DNA of 64,000 nucleotides from Methanomassiliicoccaceae archaeon DOK (GTDB lineage: Archaea > Thermoplasmatota > Thermoplasmata > Methanomassiliicoccales > Methanomethylophilaceae), in assembly GCA_009911715.1 (NCBI GenBank), contig CP047880.1, forward strand, positions 310,001 through 374,000. The letters are read 5' to 3'. Below the pieces are notes generated by a model that had not been told where the DNA came from, searched no databases, and saw nothing but the letters and a program-made list of their open reading frames with translations. A program made the translations under genes and the position numbers. Below, piece after piece: positions 28,298-35,581 of this stretch; the stretch's first letter is position 1; each line of letters starts with the position of its first letter.

Positions 28298-30199
28298 TCA
28301 CGCAGGGGACGCGGGTGCACTGGACGCACCCGTCTTCCCGTCGGCGGGCCTCCAGCAATCGTATCTCAGCAGGAGCGCCGCCATTATGATGACGATGACG
28401 GATCCGATGTTGTGCACGAGGGCCCCGGCGATCGGACCCATCAGCCCGAACACGGCCATGACCATGGCGACGGAGTTCAGGACGATGGAGAATGTTATCC
28501 CCGCCTTGATGGTCAACAGAGTCCTGCGGCTGAGCCTGACCACTCCGCCGATCTTGGAGATGTCGTCGTCGACGAAAACGATGTCCGCGCTCTCGGTGGC
28601 CATCTCGTTCCCGATGCCGCCCATGGCTATGCCGACGTCCGCCCTCTTCAGGGACGGCGCGTCATTGATCCCGTCCCCGACCATGCACGTCCTTCCGGAC
28701 CCCTCGAGGCTCACGACGGTCCTCAGCTTGTCCTCCGGGAGGCACTCCCAGACGACGTCGTCCATCCCAAGGGTGTCTGCCATCTTCCTGGCTACCTGGT
28801 GCGTGTCGCCGGTTAGCATGATGGTCTTCAGGCCCAGCGACCTCATGTCCGCCACGGTCTCGACCGAGTCGTCCTTCAGGGTGTCGGACAGCACGGCGAA
28901 CCCGACGGTCCTGCCGTCCACACCGGCAAGGACGACGGTGTAGCCGTCCTCTCTGACCTTGGCGGCGGTCGCGATGGTTTCATCCAGGTTGTCGGGACAC
29001 ATCTCCCTCATCAGACCCTCGTTTCCGGCGGTGACAGTCCTGCCGAACGCCACCCCGGACACTCCGCGCCCAGGTATGTACTCGAAGTTGGTGACCTCTC
29101 CGGGCTCACCCTGATGGGCGGCGGTTATCGCCCTCCCCAGCGGATGCTCGGAGCGGGACTCCACCGCGGACACGAGGCCCTCGAGGATTTCCGCGTCCGT
29201 GTCGGGATCGGTGCTGGTGAACCCGTGGCACACGATGTTGCCCGTGGTCAGCGTGCCGGTCTTGTCCATGAGTAGGGTGTCTACAGACGCCATCCTCTCC
29301 ACGGCGCCTCCGTCCTTCACCAGTATCCCCCTCTTAGACATGTTGCCTGCGGCGGCCATTATAGCGGTGGGCGTGGCGAGGATGAGGGCGCAGGGGCAGA
29401 ACACCACCAGGACCGTGACGGACCTGTAAATGTCCTGGAACGCGACGTAGGACAGGATGGCGACAGTGAATGCTATTATGACGATGTACACCGCCCAGCG
29501 GTCCGCGGTGCGCACGACCTTCGACTTTCCGGCATCGGCGTTCTCGATTATCCTCGCCATCCTGGCGATGGTCGTGTCATCTCCGACGCGGTCGACCTCG
29601 ATGTCCACAGATCCGTACATGTTGACGGTCCCGGAAGACACACGGTCCCCGACGCCCACGTCGCGGGGCACCGATTCGCCAGTCAGTATGGAGTTGTTCA
29701 CCGATGTGGCCCCTGATGTCACGATCCCATCGACGGGGACGACCTCGCCGGGCACGATGCGGACTGTGTCGCCCAGCATGACCTCCTCCACTGGCACGGT
29801 CGTCTCGACTCCGTTCCTGACCACTCTTGCCGTGGCGGGCTTCATGCCCACCAGCCTCATTATGCTGGCGTTCGCATGGTTGACGGTGGCCTCCTCCAGG
29901 AAGCCGCCGATCTGCATGATTATGGCGATCTCCGCCGCCGCGTCGTACTCCCCTATGATGACGGAGGCAACTATCGCCACGGACACGAGCACGTCGGCGG
30001 TTATGTCGTGCTCCTTAACGACCCCGACGATGGCGCCCCAGATTATGGGGATCCCGCAGATCGCGATCGGCACGAAAACGAGCGGCCAGGCCCAATCCGC
30101 GGTGAAAGATGCCGCCAGCGCGACGATTCCTATGACTATGCAGGAGAACTCGATCTTCTGATCCATTATCGCGTCCTTGACCAAGGACACTCCAATCAC
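28298..30199 (-). CDS. Heavy-metal-transporting P1B-type ATPase
   Basis: A metal exporter of up to 633 residues. Motifs in order: TGES (173-176), transmembrane CPC (268-270), phosphorylation site DKTGT (312-316), SEHP (350-353), TGDT, and GDGINDAP (about 515). The final transmembrane part reads GALVHNIGSVIV. No N-terminal metal-binding domain is present. CPC suits Cu+, Ag+, Zn2+ or Cd2+; the CsoR neighbour points to copper, by inference. The start is uncertain: GTG 30199 or 30190, or ATG 30166 (MDQKIEF). Two palindromic CsoR-like boxes flank the TATA box just upstream. Confidence 0.93.
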   Translation of the reverse strand: MIGVSLVKDAIMDQKIEFSCIVIGIVALAASFTADWAWPLVFVPIAICGIPIIWGAIVGVVKEHDITADVLVSVAIVASVIIGEYDAAAEIAIIMQIGGFLEEATVNHANASIMRLVGMKPATARVVRNGVETTVPVEEVMLGDTVRIVPGEVVPVDGIVTSGATSVNNSILTGESVPRDVGVGDRVSSGTVNMYGSVDIEVDRVGDDTTIARMARIIENADAGKSKVVRTADRWAVYIVIIAFTVAILSYVAFQDIYRSVTVLVVFCPCALILATPTAIMAAAGNMSKRGILVKDGGAVERMASVDTLLMDKTGTLTTGNIVCHGFTSTDPDTDAEILEGLVSAVESRSEHPLGRAITAAHQGEPGEVTNFEYIPGRGVSGVAFGRTVTAGNEGLMREMCPDNLDETIATAAKVREDGYTVVLAGVDGRTVGFAVLSDTLKDDSVETVADMRSLGLKTIMLTGDTHQVARKMADTLGMDDVVWECLPEDKLRTVVSLEGSGRTCMVGDGINDAPSLKRADVGIAMGGIGNEMATESADIVFVDDDISKIGGVVRLSRRTLLTIKAGITFSIVLNSVAMVMAVFGLMGPIAGALVHNIGSVIVIIMAALLLRYDCWRPADGKTGASSAPASPA

Positions 30200-30206
30200 C
30201 TTCTAG

Positions 30207-30248
30207 ATACCCCTACAGGGTATCCGTATATATACCCTACGGGGGTAT
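30207..30248. promoter_or_regulatory. Two CsoR-type operators around the ATPase TATA box
   Basis: Two 17-base sites, 30207-30223 and 30232-30248, each have arms ATACCC and GGGTAT around a five-base centre (CTACA and TACGG). Their centres are 25 bases apart. Between and overlapping them is TATATATA (30227-30234), which serves as TATA box for the ATPase gene on the minus strand. Pseudopalindromes with G/C tracts are typical of CsoR/RcnR operators. Binding would block the promoter, with metal releasing the repressor. Confidence 0.75.
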
Positions 30249-30261
30249 GATTGCAGGTGGA

Positions 30262-30534
30262 TCAGATCTTGGAGAACTGCTCGATTACCTTGGTGAACTC
30301 GGCGATGGTCTTCTCCGCGTCGCCATGCTCGATGCCGTCGCGGACGCAGTGCTGGATGTGTCCCTCCATGATGATCTGGCCGACCTTGTGGACGGCGCTC
30401 TTGACGGCGTTTATCTGGACTATGATGTCCTCGCAGGGAACGTCCTCGTCGATCATGCGGTCGATGGCGGCGATCTGTCCCGAGATCTTCTTGAGCCTCC
30501 TGTGGAGGTTCTCGGAGTCCATGCATTGTCTCAT
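30262..30534 (-). CDS. CsoR/RcnR-family metal-sensing repressor
   Basis: A 90-residue all-helical DUF156 repressor. The metal ligands C34, H59 and C63 match the Cys-His-Cys set of copper-sensing CsoR (C36-H61-C65 in M. tuberculosis), so Cu(I) sensing is inferred. It lies 62 bases upstream of the P-type ATPase on the same strand, and the gap holds two matching operators. Members form tetramers that leave DNA when metal binds. Confidence 0.93.
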   Translation of the reverse strand: MRQCMDSENLHRRLKKISGQIAAIDRMIDEDVPCEDIIVQINAVKSAVHKVGQIIMEGHIQHCVRDGIEHGDAEKTIAEFTKVIEQFSKI

Positions 30535-30586
30535 GGGACGTGCGTAGGTCTAACCGAGATTAAAAATGACTGGAAGTTGGAAGGGT

Positions 30587-30613
30587 CGGAGGGCGGGTGG
30601 TGCCCGCCCTCCG
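30587..30613 (-). terminator. Eleven-base-pair hairpin after terC
   Basis: CGGAGGGCGGG and CCCGCCCTCCG form a perfect 11-base-pair stem with a five-base loop, directly downstream of the TerC stop codon on the minus strand and upstream of the CsoR gene. It probably ends or stabilises the terC transcript and insulates the csoR promoter. Confidence 0.6.
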
Positions 30614-30621
30614 GTTGGGTG

Positions 30622-31563
30622 TCAGGTTACTGGTGGTTGCACCTGGGCCTTCTTCGCATCGGACTTGTTCTTGAGAACGGATGCCGCGATGGTGATGAGG
30701 AGCACCAGGACGATTACGACCAGGGACAGCACGACGGGTATCTCGATGAACGAGTGGGCCAGGAGCTTGACCGACACGAACAGCAGGATAACGCCGAGTC
30801 CGTACTTCAGGTACCTGATGGACTGCATTCCTCCGTGGATGACGAAGAACAGAGACCTCAGGCCCATCACCGCGAATATGTTCGAGGTGTAGATGACGAG
30901 GGTGTCGGTGGAAATCGCGAGGACGGCCGGGATGGAGTCCAGGGCGAACACGATGTCGGTCATCTCTATGACGATGACGCACAGGAGGAGGACGGTGACG
31001 ACGCGCTTGCCGTTCACCTTGGCGAACAGCTTCCCGCGGGTCTCCTCCGTGTCGACGTAGTCGAAACGGTTCCTCATGAACTTGGCGATCCCGTTCTCCT
31101 TGTTGTCGTCGTCCTTCCCGAACGTGGTCTTCAGCGCCACGATCAGCAGGATGACTCCGAACACGTACAGGAGCCAGTCGAACCTCTCGAGAAGCTCGAC
31201 CCCGACGAAGATGAAGATCGCACGGAACACGATGGCTCCGACGATACCGTAGAACAGCGCATGGTGCTGGTCCTCGTCTTTTATTCCGAAATATGCGAAG
31301 ATGATGATGAACACGAACAGGTTGTCCATGCTCATCGCCTCCTCGATGGCGTAGGCGGTGTAGTACTCCATCGTCTTGGTCGTGTCACCGGTCACAACGA
31401 ACAGCAGCACTCCGAACGCCAGCGCCACACCGATCCAGACGGCGGTCTGCAGAAGGGCGCTTTTCATCGGGATGTGGTGCGGCTTGCGGTTGATCCACAG
31501 GTCGGCGGCCAGGAGCACTATCACTATGACGGCGAAAACATACCATAGTGACGATTCATCCAT
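30622..31563 (-). CDS. TerC-family membrane protein
   Basis: A 313-residue protein with about eight to nine membrane spans. The family motifs EEAMSMDNLFVFIIIF and DIVFALDSIPAVLAISTD are both present with their conserved acidic residues. TerC/Alx proteins export manganese or help metallate exported proteins. Its setting among metal genes favours metal export. Its promoter (ATAAAAAGC, 31583-31591) lies just downstream of a perfect 13-base inverted repeat. Confidence 0.92.
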   Translation of the reverse strand: MDESSLWYVFAVIVIVLLAADLWINRKPHHIPMKSALLQTAVWIGVALAFGVLLFVVTGDTTKTMEYYTAYAIEEAMSMDNLFVFIIIFAYFGIKDEDQHHALFYGIVGAIVFRAIFIFVGVELLERFDWLLYVFGVILLIVALKTTFGKDDDNKENGIAKFMRNRFDYVDTEETRGKLFAKVNGKRVVTVLLLCVIVIEMTDIVFALDSIPAVLAISTDTLVIYTSNIFAVMGLRSLFFVIHGGMQSIRYLKYGLGVILLFVSVKLLAHSFIEIPVVLSLVVIVLVLLITIAASVLKNKSDAKKAQVQPPVT

Positions 31564-31617
31564 GAGTGTCCATAGGGGAAGGAATAAAAAGCTTTGTGTT
31601 GGAAATCGCGATTAGAT

Positions 31618-31651
31618 GCTCTATATAGGGTGTTTGGCCCCTATATAGAGC
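31618..31651. promoter_or_regulatory. Perfect 13-base inverted repeat between zip and terC
   Basis: GCTCTATATAGGG (31618-31630) and CCCTATATAGAGC (31639-31651) are exact complements around an eight-base loop TGTTTGGC. The repeat lies about 12 bases past the ZIP stop codon and about 27 bases upstream of the terC TATA box. AT-rich arms are unlike the GC hairpins that follow other genes here, so it may be an operator for a metal regulator rather than only a terminator. Both roles are possible. Confidence 0.55.
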
Positions 31652-31663
31652 TGAATTAGTTTG

Positions 31664-32449
31664 TCAGTGGCTGTGGGGGAACAGGATCGTGAACAGCAGG
31701 ATGAGCACGATTCCCGCGATGACGAGGGTGTACGAGCCCACGTCCTGCTTCTTCCTGTGATAGGCCTCGGGCAGTATGTCGCACATCGCGACGTACATGA
31801 ACGTACCCGCGGCGAAGGCCAGCGGTATCCCGGTGAGTCCATCGAGGTCCGATATCCCGCTGAGTGCAAGGAAGAACACGATCCCGGCGACGGGCGTTAT
31901 CAGGGCGAAGCTGAGGAGCCTCACGACGGCCTGCTTCCTGGTGTAGTCCGTGAGGATCATCGTCGTGGACAGGGAGAACAGGACCACGAACTTGTGTATG
32001 CACATCCCCACGGTGGCGATCAGCCCGACCTCCTCGCCGGCCAGGAACGTGGCGGCGAGCGCGAGTCCGTCGCAGGCGGCATGGATTGACAGGCCGACGA
32101 ACGAGGACATCGAGGTGATCCTGTGGCTGTGGTTGTCCTGGCAGCATTCGCATGAGCATCCGCCCATGTGGCGGTGCTTCAGCAGCATCTCCACCGTCAT
32201 TATGAGGACGAATCCCGCGACGATGGCGTACATGATCTGGTGTATGTCGTATCCGCCGTCCTCGCACTCATGTATCGCCTCCGGGAGAAGGAGGAAGAAC
32301 AGGAGTCCGAGGAATATCCCGGCGCTCAGCGCCATCAGCAGATGGGCCTGCTTGTCGCTGAGTTTCTTCACTCTCGGCAGCATCGCTCCCGCCATGGATA
32401 CGACGAGGAGCAGGACCGAGTACAGAGCGAAGGTGGCAACCGCTTCCAT
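31664..32449 (-). CDS. ZIP-family divalent metal transporter
   Basis: A 261-residue protein with eight predicted spans. ZIP signatures are present: LLPEAIHE, GLSIHAACDGLALAA and CIHKF, whose His, Glu and Asp residues form the binuclear metal site, and a variable loop rich in His and Cys (HRHMGGCSCECCQDNHSH, about 93-110) between spans 3 and 4. Such proteins import Zn, Fe or Mn. It diverges from the NikR-like gene across a 93-base region containing an inverted repeat, so control by that regulator is inferred. Confidence 0.92.
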   Translation of the reverse strand: MEAVATFALYSVLLLVVSMAGAMLPRVKKLSDKQAHLLMALSAGIFLGLLFFLLLPEAIHECEDGGYDIHQIMYAIVAGFVLIMTVEMLLKHRHMGGCSCECCQDNHSHRITSMSSFVGLSIHAACDGLALAATFLAGEEVGLIATVGMCIHKFVVLFSLSTTMILTDYTRKQAVVRLLSFALITPVAGIVFFLALSGISDLDGLTGIPLAFAAGTFMYVAMCDILPEAYHRKKQDVGSYTLVIAGIVLILLFTILFPHSH

Positions 32450-32471
32450 GAGCCCCGTCTTCTACGAGATG

Positions 32472-32533
32472 TTATTAAAACATTGGTGATGGGTTATTAA
32501 CTTCCACCTCCATGCAGGCGTCGAAGTTAATAA
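32472..32533. promoter_or_regulatory. Divergent zip/nikR control region with an 11-base dyad
   Basis: TTATTAACTTC (32494-32504) and GAAGTTAATAA (32523-32533) form a perfect inverted repeat with an 18-base spacer, the broad geometry of NikR-type operators. The left arm overlaps a TATA-like TTATTAA for the nikR gene and the right arm ends just before its ribosome-binding site. ATTAAAAC (32474-32481) is the TATA box of zip on the other strand. Autoregulation plus zip control is inferred. Confidence 0.65.
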
Positions 32534-32542
32534 GGTGATCCC

Positions 32543-32926
32543 ATGGGAATAGTCAGCATCTCTCTCAACGAGGACAACCTCGCCGCACTGGACAGGATTC
32601 AGAAGACGTACGGGCTGTCCGGGAGGTCGGAGGCCGTCCGCACATCGATAAACGCCGCCCTGGCTGACATCAGGGAACTGGAGGGGATGGACGGGACGGT
32701 GGAGGGTGTTCTGATAATCGTCCGCGGCAACCATGCGGACCCATGGATGAGCATGATCCAGGCCAGGTACGAATCCCACATAAAGACGCAGATGCACTCG
32801 CACCTTCAGAACCACAAGTGCCTTGAGGTGATGGTCGTCTCATGCGACGCGGACGTGCTGTCCAGCATGATGAAGGAGATCCAGGCGGAGGGTAAGGCGG
32901 ACTACGTCAAGTTCGTCCGCGGATGA
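32543..32926 (+). CDS. nikR: NikR-like ribbon-helix-helix metalloregulator
   Basis: A 127-residue protein. Residues 1-45 form the CopG-type ribbon-helix-helix (VSISLNEDNLAALDRI, SGRSEAVRTSI) and 52-127 the ACT-like metal domain. Ligands H85, H87 and C93 (MHSHLQNHKCLEV) match H87, H89 and C95 of E. coli NikR. The fourth ligand (H76 there) would fall on A74; the nearest histidine is H79, so metal choice may differ from nickel. AAGGTGA precedes the ATG. Confidence 0.85.
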   Translation: MGIVSISLNEDNLAALDRIQKTYGLSGRSEAVRTSINAALADIRELEGMDGTVEGVLIIVRGNHADPWMSMIQARYESHIKTQMHSHLQNHKCLEVMVVSCDADVLSSMMKEIQAEGKADYVKFVRG

Positions 32927-33017: not shown

Positions 33018-34709
33018 ATGAGTGATAGCTCACGCGATTACGATAGCAACGGCTCTCACAAGAGCTTCAAGGACATCTTGCAGTCGAAGCAGGGTTTCGA
33101 CGCAGACAGTCTCAAGAGAGGAATTAAGAACACACTTCAGAGCATGTTCTCCCCGAAGTCGGATTCCAGCGTGTACTCCAAGGGGGTCCGCGAGCTGGAC
33201 AACTACGGGTATGAGAAGTACAACATCGAGGACGACGGGGAGATCTTTATCTCCAAGGTCCCCGAGAAGGCTCTCTTCAACGACGGGGAGCCGATCATGG
33301 TGAGGGCGACCGGAGGCAACTTCGTCGGTTCCGCCGACAACACCTCCGCCCGCATCGACGTGGGCGAGGCCCAGGCGAAGGCGGAGGACGTTAGGAGTCT
33401 CTTCAGCAACGTCCCCAGGGGGACGACCGTCGAGACCGAGTACCACGCGACCGTGGGCGAGGTCACCGACGAGGGCACCGTCAAGCCCAGGCCCATCGAC
33501 AGGACCTTCCTCGACAGGATGAGGGCTTCCGCAGTCAACGAGAGGGCGGCACCCCACGTCGAGTTCGAGGCGGAGGACGTACCCGAGGAGGTCGCCGCGG
33601 AGTCGCCCAGGTTCCTGCAGATCGACGACGAGGCGGATGCGCCCGCAGTGGAGGTGCCCGACGTCGTCGCTCCCGTCGAAGAGCCCGTCATCGAGGCCAC
33701 GGAGGAGGAGCCCGAGCTGTTCCAGGCGATGGACGAGGAGACGATCGCCGCACCCGCAGAGGAGCCCGAGGCTCCCGTGCAGCAGTACTCCTTCCTCGAC
33801 AGGGTGGCGAGCTCCCAGAGGAAGCCTGCCGAGTTCTTCGTCGACGATGTCGATGAGCCCGTGACCGAGGAGGTCCAGGCGGAAGACGAGGACGACGACG
33901 AGTACAGCTGGATAAAGTTCGACGACGAGGTCGAGGACGTCCAGATCGACGACGAGGTCGATATCCCCATGATTGCCGCAGATGTCGCCGAGGTCGTCGC
34001 AGAGGCCCCCGTCGAGCAGTTCGAGGATGAGGTCCAGGCAGTCGCGGTCGAGGAGACCCCTGCAGAGGAGCCCGTCATCGCGTTCGCCGAGGTCCCCTCC
34101 TTCGAGGTCCCCGAGGAGCCCATCGCAGAGGAGACAGTCGCCGAGGCTTCCGTTGAGGAGGCCAAGGCCGAGGAGGAGATCGAGAACCCCATGGTCGCAG
34201 CCGACATCTTCGAGGAGACAGTCGCCGAGGCTTCCGTGGAGGAGACTCCCGCAGAGGAGCCCGTCATCGATGCGCCCGTCATCGGCGAGGTGGCCGTGGA
34301 GGTCCCCGAGGAGCCCATCGCAGAGGAGGCGCCCATCGAGGCCGTCGCCGAGGCCCCCGTCGAGCCGGTCGCGGTCATGACGCTCCCCGGCATAACAGAT
34401 GTGGAGCCAATCGTCGGTCTGGAGATGGAGGGTTCCGAGCCCTCCTCCGAGTCCGCGGTCTCGGAAGGCATCACAGCCGTCGCCGAGGTCGAGACGGCTG
34501 TCACCGGAGCCGACGTAGAGCCCGCACCCGCCGCCACGCCCAGGTTCAACGGCCTGGAGGAGGACGGCGAGGGACTTCCCAAGCTCAGCGACCCTGTGAT
34601 CAAGCGTCCGAGGTCCGTCAGATTCCGCTTCAGCAACGGCGTTCTCCAGAACGTCGAGTCCAACGACAAGGTCGAGCCCAAGGAGGAGCTCCGCGGCCCT
34701 TTAGCCTGA
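33018..34709 (+). CDS. Acidic PEVA-rich protein, zero-frame product of a frameshift pair
   Basis: A 563-residue protein of unknown function. Residues 1-190 are mixed and may fold (FKDILQSKQGFDADSLKRGI, DGEIFISKVPEKALFNDGEP). Residues about 190-520 are low-complexity repeats of Glu, Val, Ala, Pro and Asp (variants of AEEPVIxxPxxEVPEEPIAEE). A short motif RSVRFRFSNG precedes the C-terminus. The ATG at 33018 is chosen; TTATATAATTA at 32976-32986 is the TATA box. The frame ends at TGA 34707, two codons after the heptamer C_CCT_TTA, while strong coding bias continues in the -1 frame to 35581. No signal peptide was seen. Confidence 0.8.
   Translation: MSDSSRDYDSNGSHKSFKDILQSKQGFDADSLKRGIKNTLQSMFSPKSDSSVYSKGVRELDNYGYEKYNIEDDGEIFISKVPEKALFNDGEPIMVRATGGNFVGSADNTSARIDVGEAQAKAEDVRSLFSNVPRGTTVETEYHATVGEVTDEGTVKPRPIDRTFLDRMRASAVNERAAPHVEFEAEDVPEEVAAESPRFLQIDDEADAPAVEVPDVVAPVEEPVIEATEEEPELFQAMDEETIAAPAEEPEAPVQQYSFLDRVASSQRKPAEFFVDDVDEPVTEEVQAEDEDDDEYSWIKFDDEVEDVQIDDEVDIPMIAADVAEVVAEAPVEQFEDEVQAVAVEETPAEEPVIAFAEVPSFEVPEEPIAEETVAEASVEEAKAEEEIENPMVAADIFEETVAEASVEETPAEEPVIDAPVIGEVAVEVPEEPIAEEAPIEAVAEAPVEPVAVMTLPGITDVEPIVGLEMEGSEPSSESAVSEGITAVAEVETAVTGADVEPAPAATPRFNGLEEDGEGLPKLSDPVIKRPRSVRFRFSNGVLQNVESNDKVEPKEELRGPLA
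34697..34703 (+). other. Candidate -1 ribosomal frameshift heptamer (C_CCT_TTA)
   Basis: CCCTTTA fits X_XXY_YYZ exactly in phase with the upstream gene: codons CCT (34698-34700) and TTA (34701-34703) can re-pair on CCC and TTT. The zero-frame stop TGA follows after one codon. In the -1 frame the next codon is AGC at 34703, and reading continues 292 codons to 35581, giving a product of about 854 residues. A small hairpin CTGA-CGGG-TCAG (34706-34717) lies just downstream, closer than usual for a stimulator. A single-base indel in the assembly or genome would look the same. Confidence 0.5.
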
Positions 34710-35581
34710 CGGGTCAGCGCACCCTCCCCGACACCGAGCCCATCGCGGTCTCAGACAAGGTCCGCGACGTGATGCTGTTCACGGTACCCGGGCTCAAAGA
34801 CGAGGAGGACGACCCCATAGTCGCTCCGGACGTCCCCATGAGGGACGACGGAGCCGCGGGGCGCTTCGTGAAAGCGTTCATCCATGACGAGATACCGTGG
34901 ATGGATGTCAGCAACGAGGTGCGCGACCTGATGTTCCTGGCAGTTCCGAGTATCGATGTCCCGGCAGATGACCTGATCTTCGCCGACGAGGAGGTTCCCG
35001 TCGACGACATGGAGGCGTACTGGTTCGTCACTCCAGAGGCTGTCGACGAGACCGTGTCCGTCGAGGAGTCCGAGGTGCCCGTTCCCGAGACGCAGCCCAT
35101 GGTGGCTGCACCTGCCGAGTCGCCGGCGATGGCGATCTCCGCACCCGCGGCCACGCTGTCGATCCACGCACCCGCAGCGGTCCACATGCTTGCCATGCCC
35201 GCGCCCGTGTACGCTCTGGCAGAGGCGCAGGTGGAGGTGCCCGAGGTCCCTGTGGCGGAGGAACCGCTCGCAGAGGAGATCCCCGTCATCGATTCGACCG
35301 AGATCGCATGGGACGTTGCGGAGCCCGTCGTCGCCGACGAGACGGCGATCGAGCCCGAGGAAGTCCCGACACCCGCCGTCCAGGCGGAACCGGCGTTCGT
35401 GGAGCCCGTGGAGGCCCCGGTCGTCGAAGAGATCACTGTGACTGTGCCGCAGCCTGAGGAGACCGTGACGGTTTCCGAGGCCCCTGCGGTCGAGATCACC
35501 GAGAGCACGCCTTCGGTCATGTTCTCCTTCGGAACCCAGGAGTTCCACGGGAGAGGCTGGAAGGTCTGCTTCTCGTTCTAA
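34703..35581 (+). CDS. -1-frame continuation of the acidic PEVA-rich protein
   Basis: The frame reads SLTGQRTLPDTEPIAVSDKV from 34703 and continues without stop to TAA at 35579-35581. Two copies of a repeat, VSDKVRDVMLFTVP (from 34748) and VSNEVRDLMFLAVP (from about 34904), show that coding starts before the only nearby in-frame initiators (GTG 34769, ATG 34772), which lack a good ribosome-binding site. A Pro/Glu/Val/Ala-rich stretch follows, and the C-terminus PSVMFSFGTQEFHGRGW echoes the RSVRFRF motif of the upstream part. So it is read as the second half of one gene. Confidence 0.7.
   Translation, partial: SLTGQRTLPDTEPIAVSDKVRDVMLFTVPGLKDEEDDPIVAPDVPMRDDGAAGRFVKAFIHDEIPWMDVSNEVRDLMFLAVPSIDVPADDLIFADEEVPVDDMEAYWFVTPEAVDETVSVEESEVPVPETQPMVAAPAESPAMAISAPAATLSIHAPAAVHMLAMPAPVYALAEAQVEVPEVPVAEEPLAEEIPVIDSTEIAWDVAEPVVADETAIEPEEVPTPAVQAEPAFVEPVEAPVVEEITVTVPQPEETVTVSEAPAVEITESTPSVMFSFGTQEFHGRGWKVCFSF

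Follow-up and report, generated by a model that had tools for sequence, protein, structure and literature searches.

A conserved slippery heptamer at the frame junction of an acidic protein gene: a candidate for programmed −1 ribosomal frameshifting in methanogenic archaea

Introduction

In the window, the 64,000-nucleotide stretch of DNA analysed here, a gene for an acidic protein is divided between two overlapping reading frames, and the question arises whether ribosomes join the two halves by slipping back one base. The initial annotation suggested that they do, remarking that −1 frameshifting is very rarely described in archaea, and the literature agrees: fucA1 is the sole cellular archaeal gene in which it has been shown experimentally (PMC8211752, PMC8037382), and a 2021 review states that its use by other archaeal genes is unknown (PMC8211752). 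For archaeal halovirus genes and a magnesium chelatase it has been predicted only (PMC8211752, PMC8037382, PMC3711429), and our literature search found no paper joining frameshift, slippery and Methanomassiliicoccales. We consider it highly probable that programmed −1 ribosomal frameshifting yields proteins of 563 and 854 residues from this gene, a view built on comparative sequence data without ribosome profiling or peptide evidence.

Results

The frame junction

The zero frame, read from 33018, closes with ...GGC CCT TTA GCC TGA and contains the heptamer CCCTTTA in the phase C CCT TTA (Table 1). Across the junction the −1 frame reads CCC TTT AGC CTG ... and remains open through 35581, ending on a TAA at 35579-35581, 292 codons when counted from 34703. 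The in-phase X_XXY_YYZ heptamer with a stop one codon later, the length of the −1 frame and the two product sizes are thus as first annotated; the zero-frame product has 563 residues, while simultaneous slippage would give 562 + 292 = 854. The predicted trans-frame joint is ...LRGP[LF]SLTGQR, i.e., ...EELRGPLSLTGQR or ...RGPFSLTGQR, and the short form would end in ...RGPLA. The feature as initially drawn began at 34685, 12 nt upstream of the heptamer.

A duplicated motif lies in the −1 frame (VSDKVRDVMLFTVP, at 34748, and VSNEVRDLMFLAVP), and it had been argued that this repeat precedes any usable start codon. The argument holds for ATG, GTG and TTG, of which the earliest past the junction is at 34769, within the conserved motif, but it passed over a CTG that overlaps the zero-frame stop (CTGA, 34706-34709). 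On the frameshift reading, the extension would be made only as part of the 854-residue product, a trans-frame protein that is itself inferred.

Table 1 Features of the split gene in the window
Feature	Position	Strand	Remarks
Zero-frame ORF, 563-aa short product, acidic, low complexity	33018..34709	+	conserved N-terminal YSKGVRELDNYGYEKYNI region; RFRFxNGVLQNV motif right before the shift
GGAGG, Shine-Dalgarno-like, candidate stimulator	34682..34686	+	ends 10 nt before the heptamer; explained in part by conserved Glu codons
Slippery heptamer C_CCU_UUA	34697..34703	+	zero-frame codons CCT TTA; −1 frame CCC TTT
Zero-frame UGA stop	34707..34709	+	second codon past the heptamer; position common to 10/10 split species
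−1 frame extension, 292 codons	34703..35581	+	two VRDVM repeats; V/A/P/E-rich stretch; conserved tail FSFG...GWKVCFSF

The heptamer is a rare word in this genome. We counted codons over 400 kb, with the split gene excluded and genes defined by a simple longest-ORF rule, and found no in-frame C_CCU_UUA among 104,711 other codons; TTA amounts to 0.14% of codons. Because of this absence elsewhere, and because nine other species carry the split with C_CCU_UUA or C_CCU_UUG, the presence of the heptamer at the junction is more than chance.

Conservation of the split

Comparison with orthologues had been proposed in the initial annotation as a check on the heptamer and the split, and both proved to be conserved in ten species when genomes of the genus were searched and the DNA was read in three frames. 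The split falls at one shared codon, with C_CCU_UU[A/G] followed by one codon and UGA and the downstream protein in the −1 frame. The window's genome (G000), G023, G014, G015 and G027 read C_CCU_UUA GCN/GTC UGA, four others (G021, G008, G020 and G004) C_CCU_UUG GAG UGA, and the divergent G011 C_CCU_UUA CAC UGA. The −1 frame of the split species runs to a tail resembling FSFG...W+VCFSF, which is looser in G011; in G023 the contig ends before the tail is reached, and in G011 the two gene halves lie on separate contigs. The assemblies stem from several independent projects, the public records of eight carrying separate metagenome project names and taxon labels that range over Methanomethylophilaceae, Methanomassiliicoccaceae UBA71, Methanomassiliicoccales and Thermoplasmata. 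The ten species nevertheless represent fewer independent events, as nine apparently belong to one clade (eight of them on the tree described below) and G008 and G020 are near-identical in the split-gene region.

Among the five closest split species, pairwise dN/dS is below 1 in both frames, with dN of 0.21-0.47 and dS of 0.65-1.11 in the upstream zero frame, and dN of 0.25-0.50 and dS of 0.68-1.56 in the downstream −1 frame. Judged by these substitution rates, the −1 frame is coding and under purifying selection.

Sister species with a single frame

In G005, G019 and G028, three sister species, a single frame encodes the protein (...GGC/AAC CCT TTT GA[G/T/C]...), and the heptamer is kept as C_CCU_UUU. 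Their Pro-Phe at the joint falls opposite CCC TTT in the alignment with the split species, and the single-frame relatives thereby pin the joint at the heptamer's Pro-Phe. TTT makes up about 10% of Phe codons and CCT 20-26% of Pro codons in these genomes, and CCTTTT accounts for 2/24, 2/21 and 1/19 of the codon pairs that encode Pro-Phe in them; the chance of meeting it at the joint in all three is approximately 4e-4 if the lineages are assumed to be independent at synonymous sites.

Since the heptamer is followed by GA in these species, a −1 slip reads CCC UUU UGA and stops immediately. Each of the three has a hairpin, with a 7-8 bp stem and a loop of 5 nt, that begins 4-5 nt past the heptamer (MFE −12.3 to −14.7 kcal/mol; z −2.1 to −3.1). 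Every pair is formed in each, and in G028 both partners of two pairs have changed, although this covariation comes from three sequences only and was equalled in 45 of 500 shuffles. Here the heptamer, hairpin and immediate −1 stop would serve only the production of the short form, and their retention suggests that the short form itself is selected; that both forms are needed is an inference.

Candidate stimulators in the split species

In nine of the ten split species, GGAGG ends 10 nt upstream of the heptamer. Bacterial −1 frameshift sites carry a Shine-Dalgarno-like element at similar upstream spacing, and we infer a stimulatory role for GGAGG here, while noting that the element is largely predicted by conserved Lys/Arg-Glu-Glu/Gly residues. 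A mini-inverted repeat of the GGAG-NNN-CTCC type just ahead of the slippery site (34682-34692) recurs with changes in several species, at L034, L035 and L044, and may be either an mRNA element or a by-product of Glu-Glu/Gly-Leu codons.

No strong or covarying structure was detected downstream of the heptamer in the split species, the window included, where a stimulatory structure would be expected 5-9 nt away, and fold z-scores were mostly near 0. A downstream stem-loop was considered for these species and rejected, single folds being mostly no better than shuffles, and a long-range structure returned by RNAalifold was dropped as evidence, as it contained one covarying pair with one double change. 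Synonymous conservation near the junction is locally high, although not significant in a whole-gene scan. C_CC.U_UU.A, C_CC.U_UU.G and C_CC.U_UU.U all appear in a list of heptamers that frameshift at >0.10% in E. coli without stimulators, and H_HH.U_UU.Y motifs, C_CC.U_UU.U among them, are some of the most efficient in that host (PMC4066793).

Evolution of the frame arrangement

In a tree of the downstream antiporter gene, the main group of split species, represented by eight, forms one clade (98/95), with the fused G005 and G019 next to it, then the split G011; G028 (fused) and G022 (fused, no heptamer) lie across the midpoint root. This tree lacks G023, which has no antiporter on its contig, its deeper forks have only 87-89% support and the midpoint root serves for drawing. 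With fused G005 and G019 beside the split clade, and split G011 and fused G028 outside it, the tree and alignments together demonstrate that the frame assignment switched, probably twice, while the heptamer persisted.

More distant homologues and paralogues, about thirty loci in the genus and family, have single open frames without an in-frame CCCTTT at the joint; among them this word occurs in frame just once, near the start of the L186 frame. From this distribution, the long protein probably came first, and the slippery site was acquired later, in one clade. Uninterrupted orthologues without the heptamer had been named at the outset as a finding that would refute frameshifting; such genes exist as these distant homologues and paralogues, but the nearest three fused orthologues keep the heptamer. 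In other species of the genus, L194, L195, L196, L198, L199 and L200 are long paralogues of the acidic family with a single frame, and the majority have tandem repeats such as PAWDVTEEASVSFADYISMIPEE ahead of a conserved FSFG...F tail.

The protein and its gene neighbourhood

Neither half of the protein matched a Pfam or NCBIfam profile at E 0.1, and AlphaFold2 gave no confident fold for the N-terminal region (mean pLDDT 54, pTM 0.16), a prediction in keeping with a disordered N-terminal part. Shorter homologues that comprise only the N-terminal part are present in G013, G024, G018, G030, G003, G012 and G009, and their existence makes a functional short form plausible. Loci L040, L041, L042, L043 and L046 are N-terminal-only homologues of about 147-160 aa, and the genomes in which they lie contain long paralogues in a single frame as well, as though the two forms were encoded by separate genes there.

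Where the contig permits a check, TerC-, ZIP- and NikR-like genes are conserved upstream and a KefB-type antiporter gene downstream, except that NikR was not found nearby in G028 and G022. The window is rich in metal-homeostasis genes at 28298-32926 (a heavy-metal P-type ATPase, a CsoR/RcnR-like regulator of 90 aa at 30262-30534 on the minus strand, a TerC-like gene, a ZIP-like transporter and a NikR-like regulator), all named from reading translations and not from profiles. The constant position before the antiporter gene is the only functional hint, and an antiporter-linked role is speculation.

Discussion

We propose the following mechanism. Ribosomes would arrive at C_CCU_UUA with tRNA-Pro in the P site and tRNA-Leu in the A site, and one fraction would read two more codons to the UGA and release the short form. 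The remaining ribosomes would slip back by one base, re-pair on CCC UUU and go on in the −1 frame, to produce a long form with the conserved C-terminal module. The slippage itself is inferred from what the comparison establishes, namely the conservation of heptamer, split and stop together with selection on both frames and the switch of frame between sister clades that retain the heptamer.

The most serious competitor to frameshifting is gene fission with translational coupling, whereby ribosomes would terminate at the UGA and reinitiate at an overlapping NTG, so that two separate proteins are made. Stop-start overlaps are common between prokaryotic genes, and NTGA stands at the stop in all ten split species, with N being C or G; with such a CTG or GTG at every zero-frame stop, reinitiation cannot formally be ruled out. 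However, the overlapping start is never ATG, being CTG in five species (G000, G023, G015, G027 and G011) and GTG in five, and the GGAGG is 19 nt from the NTG, a placement that suits the stimulation of frameshifting but is too distant for initiation. The combination of a good overlapping start with a Shine-Dalgarno sequence at initiation distance, by which coupling would be recognised, is therefore not met in the ten species, and the hydrophobic codon at the NTG is accounted for by the Leu, Val or Ile found there in the fused relatives (PFDV, PFEL, PFDI). Fission also leaves unexplained both the invariant CCCTTT[A/G], with its rare Leu codons TTA and TTG, and the CCCTTTT and hairpin of the fused relatives, and we regard it as improbable. 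An error of sequencing or assembly, or an indel that arose recently in this genome alone and left a pseudogene, has in its favour that a single-base change would join the frames, and an indel within CCCTTT was the alternative raised initially. Ten species share the split and the heptamer in independent assemblies, which therefore excludes an error or private change in the window, and purifying selection acts on both halves; hardly any weight can be given to this account.

Slippage during transcription rather than translation could also restore the frame, but it normally needs long A or T runs, and at the window site no homopolymer exceeds three C or three T. It has a precedent in dnaX of Thermus thermophilus (PMC5009743), yet it is very improbable here. 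Ribosomal frameshifting might, on the other hand, be merely corrective, a sub-case of our preferred explanation in which loss of one base from an ancestral CCCTTTT was tolerated at a site that was already slippery, so that only the long form is useful and the short form is a by-product. That distant homologues are long and single-framed, and that the fused sisters already have C_CCU_UUU, would fit such a history, whereas the heptamer, hairpin and −1 stop of those sisters suggest selection for the short form, and the split has persisted over nine related species with no reversion. A purely corrective role thus remains possible, although we are inclined to doubt it.

The programmed frameshifting proposed for this site resembles several known systems in part. 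As in fucA1, the α-L-fucosidase gene of Saccharolobus solfataricus, an archaeal chromosomal gene occupies zero and −1 frames that meet at an X_XXY_YYZ heptamer (PMC8211752, PMC8037382), and full-length relatives retain a version of the site that differs by one base. The fucA1 site is A_AAA_AAT, its split is known only in S. solfataricus strains, and the enzyme has a known function and experimental proof, whereas the window gene has C_CCU_UUN, is split in ten species, belongs to an unknown family and has no experiment behind it. The magnesium chelatase of Methanococcus and Methanocaldococcus, for which programmed −1 frameshifting is predicted, is likewise encoded in two frames in methanogens and has fused homologues in other organisms, although its slippery run is poly-A and its family is of known function (PMC3711429).

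A further comparison is with bacterial dnaX, whose gamma and tau products are also short and long proteins with a shared N-terminus, made with the help of an upstream Shine-Dalgarno-like element (PMC5009743). The downstream stem-loop of dnaX has a counterpart in our fused species, while the split species are without a clear one. In some species the zero-frame stop of dnaX directly follows the site, a reversal of roles that matches the frame switch seen here and that Atkins et al. (2016) link to efficiencies near 50% (PMC5009743). By analogy, an efficiency near 50% may be inferred for the archaeal site, for which there is no measurement; dnaX is an unrelated, bacterial gene with A_AAA_AAG in place of C_CCU_UUN. 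The frameshift heptamer of Giardia lamblia virus is CCCUUUA, a word that does occur in a paper on this virus. If it has this role there, the heptamer is the same as in the window, albeit in a virus of a eukaryote and an unrelated protein.

The gene is therefore a strongly supported new candidate for programmed −1 ribosomal frameshifting in archaea, with an unusual natural series of frame arrangements. A broader proposal, on which we find the case evenly balanced, is that the slippery site is ancestral to a clade of Methanomethylophilaceae, where it would fix the proportion of short and long forms made of a disordered acidic protein that is otherwise unknown, and is efficient enough for lineages to swap which form needs the shift. 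In that case, judged by the literature consulted, no earlier conserved example of dnaX-type recoding would be known from a cellular archaeal gene. In these methanogens, genes of this kind will be divided or cut short by annotation pipelines. With the slippery word present in thirteen species under two opposite frame arrangements, the family offers a natural comparative system for ribosome slippage in archaea, which bears on the stimulators to which archaeal ribosomes respond and on how a frameshift site originates in an ordinary single-frame gene.
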